A stretch of 64,000 bases of DNA from Brachyspira hampsonii 30446 (lineage in GTDB: Bacteria > Spirochaetota > Brachyspiria > Brachyspirales > Brachyspiraceae). The stretch lies in NCBI RefSeq assembly GCF_000316195.1, contig NZ_JH994111.1, positions 628,571-692,570 of the forward strand, read 5' to 3'. Positions 9,920 through 13,351 of the stretch are shown in pieces; position 1 is the stretch's first letter; each line of letters starts with the position of its first letter. A program made the position numbers and the translations under genes. The notes under the pieces are model-generated. The model did no database searches. It was not told the DNA's origin and worked only from the letters and a program-made list of their open reading frames with translations.

Positions 9920-10237
9920 TTATAGATATTCTTTTAACCAATCTTTTAATTGAGCTTCATTTTTCATTCCTTCAGCTCTTTTAATAAGTTCTCCGCCTTT
10001 GAATACCATTAGAGTAGGTATAGACTGCACTCCGTATTTAGCAGCCACTTCTTCAGCAGCATCTACATCAACAGCACCGAAATTCATTTTATCAGAATAT
10101 TGATCTGCTATTTTATGTAATACAGGAGTCTGCATTTTACAAGGTCCGCACCATTCAGCGAAAAAATCAACTAATATTGCTTTATCTCCAGATATAGCTT
10201 CTTGAAAATTATCTGTTTTTAATTCTTGTACTGACAT
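9920..10237 (-). CDS. trxA: thioredoxin
   Basis: 105 aa, the normal thioredoxin length. The active site EWCGPCK has Cys30 and Cys33; DFFAEW before it and the cis-Pro loop SIPTLMVFKGGE (about residue 77) are present. It reduces protein disulfides in the cytoplasm with thioredoxin reductase; no reductase gene is nearby. A strong RBS (GAGGGGA) precedes the ATG, and the gene has its own promoter and terminator, so it is monocistronic. Confidence 0.97.
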   Translation of the reverse strand: MSVQELKTDNFQEAISGDKAILVDFFAEWCGPCKMQTPVLHKIADQYSDKMNFGAVDVDAAEEVAAKYGVQSIPTLMVFKGGELIKRAEGMKNEAQLKDWLKEYL

Positions 10238-10842: not shown

Positions 10843-11505
10843 ATGTTTAAGAAAATTTTAGAAAAGCATATTATAGAAAGAACTATAATACTTTTAATAG
10901 GACTTTATATTATGTCTTTAGGTATAGCCTTTTCTATTAAAGCGTCGCTTGGTACTTCTCCTATTTCAAGTGTGCCTTATGTTACAAGCTGCATATCAGG
11001 GCTTTCTGTGGGAGAAACTACAATTATTATTAATCTTGTATTTATACTAGCACAAATACTTCTTCTTAGGAAAAAATATAATCCATTTCAGCTTTTTCAA
11101 ATACCGGCACTTGTTCTATTTGGTATAATGATAGATATAAGTGGTTCTTTGATAAAAGATATAACATACAGCAATTATTTTCAGCAGTGGGTATTATGTT
11201 TTATTGGGATAATCTTAGTAGGTGTTGGAGTGAGTATAGAAATTATGGCAAAACTTGTAACTACTCCTGGTGAAGGCGTTGTACTTGCTATATGTAAAGT
11301 TTTTCCTTTAAAATTCGGCAATACAAAAATTATGTTTGATGTTGTATTAGTATTGATTTCTTTAATAACAGTTTTGGCATTTTTAGGTCATTTAGAAGGG
11401 GTTAGGGAAGGTACTATAATAGCTGCAATTTTAGTAGGATTTATAGCAAAACATTTGAGCAAGCCTTTAAAACTTTTAGAGAACAAATATTTACTTAATG
11501 AATAA
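10843..11505 (+). CDS. YczE/YitT-like integral membrane protein
   Basis: 220 aa with five or six hydrophobic helices. The N-terminal IMSLGIAFSIKASLGTSPIS and the middle VSIEIMAKLVTTPGEGVV are typical of the YczE/DUF6198 family, whose function is not firmly known. GGAG precedes the ATG. It lies 3 bp after the MarR gene, shares its promoter and is followed by a strong terminator, so the two form a two-gene operon. A transport or export role under MarR control is a reasonable inference only. Confidence 0.75.
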   Translation: MFKKILEKHIIERTIILLIGLYIMSLGIAFSIKASLGTSPISSVPYVTSCISGLSVGETTIIINLVFILAQILLLRKKYNPFQLFQIPALVLFGIMIDISGSLIKDITYSNYFQQWVLCFIGIILVGVGVSIEIMAKLVTTPGEGVVLAICKVFPLKFGNTKIMFDVVLVLISLITVLAFLGHLEGVREGTIIAAILVGFIAKHLSKPLKLLENKYLLNE

Positions 11506-11543
11506 AATGAATAACTAGTAAAAATTTTCATTTATTTTATATG

Positions 11544-11580
11544 AAAAGCCATGTTTCTATTGGAAGCATGGCTTTTTTAT
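11544..11580 (+). terminator. terminator of the marR operon
   Basis: A stem of about 14 bp (AAAAGCCATGTTTC with GGAAGCATGGCTTTT, one wobble) is followed by a T run. Confidence 0.85.
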
Positions 11581-11678
11581 TAATATTATATTTTTTATTC
11601 TATAATCTTATGCCATATTAAAATTGGTATATAAATTAAATTGTAATATAAGTGAAATTTATTTGTGAATAATAAAAT

Positions 11679-12025
11679 AGACCTGTTGCAATTTTGTGTT
11701 TTTATACAGTTATGATTAAAAATACATAATATAAATTTTATTTATAGTAGTTTTATATATTATTTTTTGTTTTAAATGTAATATAATTTTATACAAATAA
11801 GATATAAAAATGCAGTCTTTCGCCGTAGGCGGGCTTTGCCTGCTTCTCACCGAAGGCGTACTTCGTATGTGCCACACCGAAGGCGGACAGCGTCACAAAA
11901 GAAGTGGGGTTTGGCACGAATGTGTGCTTCGCAGCAAAGCCCCAATTATTAAAACTATAAATATTATTTTTAAATTTATTATATAATAATATCACTATAT
12001 GTATGTATAAAATTGCAACAGGTCT
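11679..12025. repeat. 347-bp element with 17-bp terminal inverted repeats
   Basis: The ends are exact inverted copies: AGACCTGTTGCAATTTT at 11679-11695 and its reverse complement at 12009-12025. The outer two thirds are AT-rich, but 11810-11945 is far more GC-rich than the surroundings and contains repeated CCGAAGGCG and small palindromes (CGCCGTAGGCG). AAT flanks both ends and could be a 3-bp target duplication, though this is weak in AT-rich DNA. There is no transposase. It looks like a MITE-like or other non-autonomous dispersed element. A compositionally similar island lies at 49420-49660. Confidence 0.6.
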
Positions 12026-12043
12026 AATATTAATTTTGCACAA

Positions 12044-12077
12044 ATAAAAAAGCCCTGTTTCATAAAAAACAGAGCTT
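12044..12077 (-). terminator. terminator of fabF
   Basis: On the minus strand an 11-bp stem (12067-12077 with 12050-12060, one G-U pair) is followed by TTTTTTATTT, 21 bp after the fabF stop. Confidence 0.8.
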
Positions 12078-12097
12078 ATTATTTTTATAATTTTATA

Positions 12098-13351
12098 TTA
12101 TATTTTTTTGAATACTATAGAAGCATTATGCCCGCCGAAACCGAAAGAATTACTTATAGCATATTCTATTTTGTAATCCTGAGCAGTATTAGCAACAACA
12201 TCTAAATCGCATTCTGGGTCTTGATCTTCTACATTGATAGTAGGGTGTACTTTACCATTAATCATACTCATAATAGTTGCAATAGCTTCTATACCGCCTG
12301 CAGCTCCCAAAGCATGACCTGTCATAGATTTTGTAGAGTTAATTTTTATTTTTTTAGCATGATCTTCGCCTAAAGCCTTTTTAATAGCTTTAATCTCAGC
12401 AATATCTCCTACAGGAGTAGAAGTACCATGAGTATTAACATAGCTGATTTTGTCAGGGGATATTTTAGCACTTTCAATAGCTAAAGACATAGCCCTTGCT
12501 CCCATAGCACCGTCTTCTAAAGGAGCAGTGATATGATTAGCATCAGCAGTAAATCCATAACCGCAAACTTCAGCAAGTATATTGGCATTTCTTTTTTTGG
12601 CATGTTCATACTCTTCAAGTATTAATATACCGGCACCCTCAGCTATAACAAAACCGTCTCTTCCTTTATCGAAAGGTCTTGATGCTTTTGAAGGCTCATC
12701 ATTTCTAGTAGATAAAGCTCTGGCATTATTAAAACCAGCTATAGTAAGAGGATTAATAGTAGCTTCAGAACCTCCAACTACCATAATATCAGCTTCATTA
12801 TCTTTAATATGTTTGTATCCTAAACCTATAGAATGATTTGAAGAAGCACAAGCAGTAACTGTACTGTAATTAGGTCCGTTCATACCATATTCCATAGAAA
12901 TAAGTCCTGGTGTCATATTAATTATTTGCATAGGCACAAAAAAAGGCGATACTCTGCTAGGTCCGTCATTAAGTAAAATTTGATGGTTAGATAAAAGAGT
13001 AGTCATACCGCCAATACCGCTGCCAAGAACACAGCCGGCTCTTAAAGGATCAAATCCTGTTTTAGGTTCTATACCAGCCTGCTTAAATGCATGATGAGCG
13101 GCATATATTCCAAAATTGATAAAAGGGTCTAGTCTTCTTAACATTTTTTTATCAGAATAATAATCACCTTCTAATGGTAAAGCTTCAGCACCGATTTTGG
13201 TAATAAGCTGTTCTTTTTCAGGATCAAAATATTTACTTAATGTTTTTATTCCAGAAACACCATTAAGCAAGTTATCCCAAAATGTTTTTACATCATTTCC
13301 AAGAGAACTTACTATACCGAGTCCTGTAATTACAACTCTGCGTTCACTCAT
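12098..13351 (-). CDS. fabF: beta-ketoacyl-ACP synthase II
   Basis: 417 aa, standard FabF length. The Cys-His-His triad is present: Cys in VTACASS (~residue 167), His in NTHGTSTPVGD (~308) and His in MTGHALGAAGG (~345). It catalyses the condensation of acyl-ACP with malonyl-ACP in fatty acid elongation. It is downstream of acpP and fabG on the same strand. A 13-bp stem with a T run sits between acpP and fabF, so fabF is probably made at a lower level than acpP. Confidence 0.97.
   Translation of the reverse strand: MSERRVVITGLGIVSSLGNDVKTFWDNLLNGVSGIKTLSKYFDPEKEQLITKIGAEALPLEGDYYSDKKMLRRLDPFINFGIYAAHHAFKQAGIEPKTGFDPLRAGCVLGSGIGGMTTLLSNHQILLNDGPSRVSPFFVPMQIINMTPGLISMEYGMNGPNYSTVTACASSNHSIGLGYKHIKDNEADIMVVGGSEATINPLTIAGFNNARALSTRNDEPSKASRPFDKGRDGFVIAEGAGILILEEYEHAKKRNANILAEVCGYGFTADANHITAPLEDGAMGARAMSLAIESAKISPDKISYVNTHGTSTPVGDIAEIKAIKKALGEDHAKKIKINSTKSMTGHALGAAGGIEAIATIMSMINGKVHPTINVEDQDPECDLDVVANTAQDYKIEYAISNSFGFGGHNASIVFKKI

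Follow-up and report, generated by a model that had tools for sequence, protein, structure and literature searches.

A MITE of Brachyspira hampsonii with a Modular Hairpin Core That Recurs between IS5-Type and IS630-Type Ends

The Window Element and Its Setting

The window, a stretch of 64,000 nucleotides of the Brachyspira hampsonii 30446 genome, carries at positions 11679–12025 a MITE of 347 bp. Two convergent genes enclose it: an open frame that ends at 11505, and a minus-strand gene at 12098–13351, which from its translation we take to be fabF-like; each of these neighbors has a terminator-like hairpin of its own (11543–11577 and 12077–12050, respectively). The element is bounded by terminal inverted repeats of 17 bp with no mismatch, AGACCTGTTGCAATTTT on the left and AAAATTGCAACAGGTCT on the right, which we designate TIR-A, and at up to three mismatches these are the only two sites of this end within the window. 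The parts of the element, including the AAT duplication that flanks it, are given in table 1.

The GC content is 0.405 over positions 11800–11999 compared with 0.145 over the preceding 200 bp (11600–11799), and the core proper reaches 58%; CCGAAGGCG is present twice within this GC-rich center. An earlier note, made from the DNA letters alone, had described the perfect inverted ends, a center of unusual composition and short repeats within it, and all three descriptions hold. It had also considered a minus-strand frame in the element as probably not a gene, and we agree: Neither this frame nor the plus-strand ATGCAG frame has a Pfam match at E values up to 1, and the copies of the element differ by indels of about 19–20 nt, mostly not multiples of three. 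A coding origin of the core was rejected, given the lack of a Pfam match and a frame that is not kept among copies. The element thus has the length (below 600 bp) and the terminal inverted repeats of a MITE, and is present in multiple copies with no transposase gene, its open frames being without Pfam matches.

Table 1. Parts of the window element, with positions counted from the first nucleotide of the window.
Feature	Position	Strand	Remarks
Target-site duplication AAT, left	11676..11678	.	AAT/AAT or ATT/ATT in 17/18 paired TIR-A elements
Left terminal inverted repeat TIR-A, AGACCTGTTGCAATTTT	11679..11695	+	52 own-genome matches at <=3 mismatches; reversed control 0
Left AT-rich arm	11696..11811	+	From alignment; from about 11768 aligns with IS630-type elements
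GC-rich hairpin core, GCAGTC to CCCCA, 133 nt	11812..11944	+	Anchor AAAAGAASTGGGG
Double hairpin 1, CGCC-GTA-GGCG + GGC-TTT-GCC	11821..11840	+	Perfect 20-nt unit
5' arm of hairpin H1, CTTCT	11843..11847	+	
Double hairpin 2, CACC-GAA-GGCG + TAC-TTC-GTA	11848..11867	+	One first-stem mismatch
Double hairpin 3, CACC-GAA-GGCG + GAC-AGC-GTC	11875..11894	+	One first-stem mismatch; present/absent between copies
3' arm of hairpin H1, AAAAGAAG	11897..11904	+	
Hairpin H2, GGGG...CCCC	11906..11943	+	Double hairpin 4 in loop
Double hairpin 4, CAC-GAAT-GTG + TGC-TTC-GCA	11915-11933		Inside H2 loop
Right AT-rich arm	11945..12008	+	From alignment of copies
Right terminal inverted repeat TIR-A	12009..12025	-	
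Target-site duplication AAT, right	12026..12028	.	Empty site of G019 has one AAT

Copies, Empty Sites, and Candidate Transposases

Using window positions 11600–12100 as the query against the organism's own genome (3.04 Mb in four contigs) and 40 relatives, we found 43 own-genome matches, 13 of which, including the window's own, have E values of 2e-60 or better and span most of the element. The paired TIR-A elements on which the duplication was counted (15 from the own genome and three from relatives, leaving out partnerless single ends and both chimeras with one TIR-A and one TIR-B end) have a single exception, a nested TIR-A pair of 1,158 bp with further MITEs inside (locus L081). In the relative G019, the empty site is exact: Flanks of about 300 bp each, 86% and 95% identical, join at one AAT. 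Two further relatives are also without the element at the orthologous place (G024, locus L048, and G016, locus L049), the left flank being less exact there. The earlier note had suggested that the element, lacking a transposase, could be a MITE or another nonautonomous mobile or structural element, against which it set the picture of a single copy conserved everywhere with no empty site; the copies, the target duplications and the empty site support the former, the element being multicopy and absent in relatives.

The TIR-A end also occurs in named records of B. innocens ATCC 29796 and of an uncultured Brachyspira. In the GTDB species collection, exact TIR-A was found in 53 stretches, three of them from Brachyspira and the rest looking like chance. 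The four outgroup loci inspected among the matches to the window query are AT-rich and without the core motif, and neither the element nor its core was found in plasmid, phage, and viral collections. Two long end pairs were considered as autonomous elements and rejected, one of 2.7 kb enclosing ordinary genes and the 1,158-bp pair, which is a nest of MITEs; the frame at L081 54–977 adjoining this nest presumably encodes an Rpn-type protein (PD-(D/E)XK).

A second end, AGACTTGTTTCAAAACT, first seen in the L081 nest, defines the sister family TIR-B. With 134 and 128 matches in the own genome (controls 1 and 0), it amounts to about 130 copies there, is found in 25 of 26 genomes of the genus, and is accompanied by an AAT/ATT duplication in 18 of the 19 paired elements fetched. 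The transposase domain PF01609 is encoded in four of the 26 genomes, and two of these genomes (G041 and G022) have a TIR-B end directly after the transposase frame; the matches in G020 and G023 were set aside, no TIR-B end lying nearby at up to two mismatches. The transposase fragment belongs to the IS5 family (NF033581, E 2.7e-28; PF01609, E 7e-20), and its incompleteness explains why the NF033581 match falls below the cut-off set for that model. Protein searches retrieved an IS5-family transposase from five of the 26 genomes, with a weak match in G009. The right end of the IS5-family element in G041, AGACTTGTTTCAAAAGT, is present at 13 places, 12 of which abut AAT/ATT; most of these copies border contig ends, where a draft assembly would be expected to break at a repeated IS. 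At locus L185 of the same genome, the IS5-family transposase relic is flanked by inverted frames, IS3-like as we read them, one of which seemingly cuts the relic. A degenerate IS in G022 has the left end AGACCTGTTTCAAAATTACTTGACAAAC.

TIR-B is identical to the end of the IS5-family IS at 16 of 17 positions, and TIR-A to the end of the degenerate IS in G022 at 14 of 17. As judged from this match of ends, most of which abut AAT/ATT in the IS, the TIR-B elements are IS5-family MITEs. The earlier note had proposed a search for a transposase sharing the ends. Such a transposase was found in relatives for the sister family TIR-B, and for exact TIR-A the search yielded no autonomous IS. The own genome yielded neither PF01609 nor, in a direct protein search, an IS5-family transposase, and PF13586 was found in none of the 26 genomes. 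With no IS of exact TIR-A and no IS5 transposase of its own, the link between TIR-A and IS5 is drawn from the similarity of the ends, the shared rule of target duplication, and the A/B chimeras. The latter (L040 and L044) have no target-site duplication and unlike flanks on the two sides, which is what recombination between copies would be expected to leave.

Architecture and Distribution of the Hairpin Core

To describe the core, 62 unique cores were extracted from the fetched loci and 57 kept, five being dropped for a length over 206 or a GC content under 0.40. The smallest is 57 nt long and comprises two hairpins, H1 (CTTCTTT..AAAAGAAG) and H2 (GGGG..CCCC). In the 46 of 57 cores with a recognized end, the lengths before the H1 3' arm cluster at 27–28, 45–49, 65–70, 83–90, 97–108, and 122–125 nt, with few between, and those after it at 28–32, 47–53, and 68–70 nt. 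These steps of about 19.5 nt reflect the presence or absence of entire 20-nt double hairpins in individual copies, each unit consisting of a 4-bp stem with a 3-nt loop followed by a 3-bp stem with a 3-nt loop; of the four units in the window copy, one is perfect and three are imperfect. A looser search, accepting first stems of at least 4 and second stems of at least 3, yields 56 double hairpins among the 57 cores, compared with 6.9 on average (sd 2.5) and 14 at most when the cores were dinucleotide-shuffled 100 times; the distinct units number 29.

Among the 21 position-defined units, 93.9% of the pair cells are standard compared with 84.1% after shuffling. The second stem takes the forms GGC/GCC or TAC/GTA and covaries, with 20 cells changed on both sides against 0 of 500 shuffles, a count inflated by related rows; changes in the first stem are mostly one-sided. 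The outermost bases of H1 are C..G in 41 of 57 cores, G..C in six, and mismatched in four, the remaining six having no recognized 5' arm. Units also nest: In nine cases, one is enclosed by the 4-bp stem of another, the loci L180 and L181 differ by the insertion of one nested unit, and the same unit types occur at different core sites. Taken as a whole, the core shows no significant folding advantage over shuffled sequences on the plus strand (z −0.94 as RNA and −1.81 as DNA); the z value of the minus-strand RNA is −1.92. In the core, no match to an Rfam family comes near the gathering score, on which ground a known RNA family was rejected as its identity.

We counted 98 sites of the core anchor AAAAGAASTGGGG in the own genome; across the genus they number 1,614, spread over 23 of the 26 Brachyspira genomes, and the reversed control gave 0 in every genome. 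The absence of the anchor from G021, G005, and G009 could help to date the expansion of the core in Brachyspira. The own genome has the commonest unit at 33 places, and for 31 of these an anchor or a listed TIR-B end lies no more than 200 bp away. An isolated perfect double hairpin was observed at 10141–10160 of locus L162, a phage-like contig of the own genome (G000:C2), with no MITE ends seen nearby; on the minus strand it reads CGCCAAAGGCG GACTTCGTC, and it sits where a minus-strand frame meets a plus-strand frame, presumably terminase-like and portal-like, respectively. The same contig has two TIR-B elements (L162 2274–2625 and 3546–3770), and phage or plasmid DNA can thereby carry such MITEs between strains.

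In other species, cores lie between ends of a different type (C), TATACTGAAAATTTTTAAGTTTGTCAA and TATACCTAAACAACTATATTTTGTCAA. A relic in G024 (L190 758–1813) has both C ends, TA on either side, and pieces of an IS630-type transposase, including a DDE_3 fragment with an E value of 1.7e-7; such a relic was found in one of the 26 genomes only. By the evidence of this relic, the C elements have the ends of an IS630-family IS and its TA target, and thus the features of IS630-type MITEs. Their TA duplication is hard to read because the end itself starts TATA, and some C elements, for example L096, show none. In a BLAST comparison, positions 90–241 of the window element align with the C element L106 (80% identity over 153 bp; E value 5e-34), a stretch that takes in the greater part of the core plus the 44 bp preceding it and stops short of the ends. 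In two further chimeras, L101 and L105, a C left arm is joined to a B right end. Taken together, this alignment and these chimeras indicate that the same interior is common to two unrelated transposase systems.

An extra hairpin near the left end was observed in L103, L101, and other IS630-type elements; it exists in two matching forms, GTTCTTTTT..AAAAAGAAC and CAACTTTTT..AAAAAGTTG, which suggests paired changes.

Origin of the Core and Comparison with Known Systems

We consider it highly probable that the window element is a MITE, putatively mobilized in trans by the IS5 family, with a hairpin core that gains and loses units and recombines. The mode of movement is well supported as far as sequence comparison can speak to it: An intact IS elsewhere would supply the IS5-family DDE transposase, which would act on the ends of the element and paste it into an AAT/ATT site. 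The loops of H1 and H2 would gain and lose 20-nt double hairpins, probably by replication slippage or template switching at the hairpins, and dispersed copies of the core may recombine, leading to swapped ends. Such turnover of units together with recombination of cores would explain both the presence of the core between IS5-type and IS630-type ends and the chimeras. Most of the core we think to be passenger sequence, its hairpins being tolerated, or else favored for the insulation of transcription or the pairing of ends.

A bolder reading, which we regard as doubtful, would have structure-defined 20-nt double hairpins on Brachyspira chromosomes proliferate by inserting into hairpin loops, their own included, with the MITEs of two unrelated transposase families as their vehicles, and would make them a bacterial counterpart of mitochondrial double-hairpin elements and GC clusters. 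Equally doubtful is the related view of the units as tiny mobile elements that target hairpin loops, a bacterial counterpart of the mitochondrial double-hairpin elements. A fixed architecture with differing stems in 29 distinct units, the nine cases nested in the stems and loops of other units, the recurrence of unit types at different sites, and the lone unit in the phage-like contig with no MITE ends seen nearby would all fit; yet duplication by slippage or recombination gives the same picture, and with 31 of the 33 places of the commonest unit close to an anchor or TIR-B end, movement outside the cores is hardly seen.

That the core is instead a selected functional unit, a structured noncoding RNA or a DNA signal captured more than once by MITE families, we judge unlikely. 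The same 57-nt base core occurs in MITEs with unrelated ends, the end pair of H1 switches from C-G to G-C, and the second stem covaries beyond all shuffles, but relatedness inflates the covariation, the length is very variable, the plus strand has no global fold signal, Rfam offers no family at gathering score, and promoter-like sites are no more frequent than in shuffles (8 vs. 6.0). It is quite improbable that the element owes its retention to a role as bidirectional terminator or insulator of transcription, as some REP elements do: The window copy does lie between convergent genes, as do seven of 14 TIR-A copies in a crude call of open frames, but the same call places six between tandem genes and one between divergent genes, the neighbors of the window copy already have terminator-like hairpins, and insertion into AT-rich intergenic DNA alone would give such a placement.

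As a MITE, the window element is ordinary. It resembles IS5-family MITEs in being short, intergenic, and without a transposase, in its inverted ends similar to those of IS5-type elements of the same genus, in its 3-bp duplication, and in its many copies; it differs in its center, which is a modular GC-rich hairpin core common to IS630-type MITEs and has no recognizable remnant of an IS. Modular MITE interiors and mitochondrial double hairpins are already known, and in the open-licence literature we found no report of nested 20-nt double hairpins in a core common to IS5-type and IS630-type MITEs. Such cores form a legible record of the swapping of ends between unrelated transposases and of hairpins growing inside hairpins.

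Besides the papers cited below, the literature covered included PMC3532143, PMC2650404, PMC2897892, and PMC4603578. BrickBuilt, a MITE of Porphyromonas gingivalis, has a tandem 23-nt minisatellite between a leader and a tail (PMC4596501) and likewise a middle made of a repeating short unit; the Brachyspira cores lack such a tandem 23-nt repeat, their units being 20 nt long, varied in sequence, placed at several sites, and in some cases nested, with no tandem array. The BOX elements of Streptococcus pneumoniae consist of ends and a variable number of boxB modules, with a predicted stem-loop RNA, and in S. suis the same boxB modules lie between two different end types (PMC3049150). The likeness to BOX, a modular interior with a variable number of modules, is one of architecture, and the Brachyspira end types differ in tracing to two transposase families. 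REP and BIME sequences are described as palindromes of 20–40 bp, mosaic and intergenic, with some REP dimers inside other palindromes (PMC3733652), a description that the Brachyspira hairpins resemble in being short palindromes in intergenic mosaics and depart from in being carried by DDE-type MITEs. The repetitive double-hairpin elements of mitochondrial DNA comprise several unit types repeated in one genome (PMC2800124; PMC5910586), as do those of Brachyspira, which differ in being located on bacterial chromosomes and, so far, in being confined to MITE cores, without signs of independent mobility. Should the Brachyspira double hairpins prove to be mobile in their own right, bacteria could serve for studying how mitochondrial GC clusters arose.
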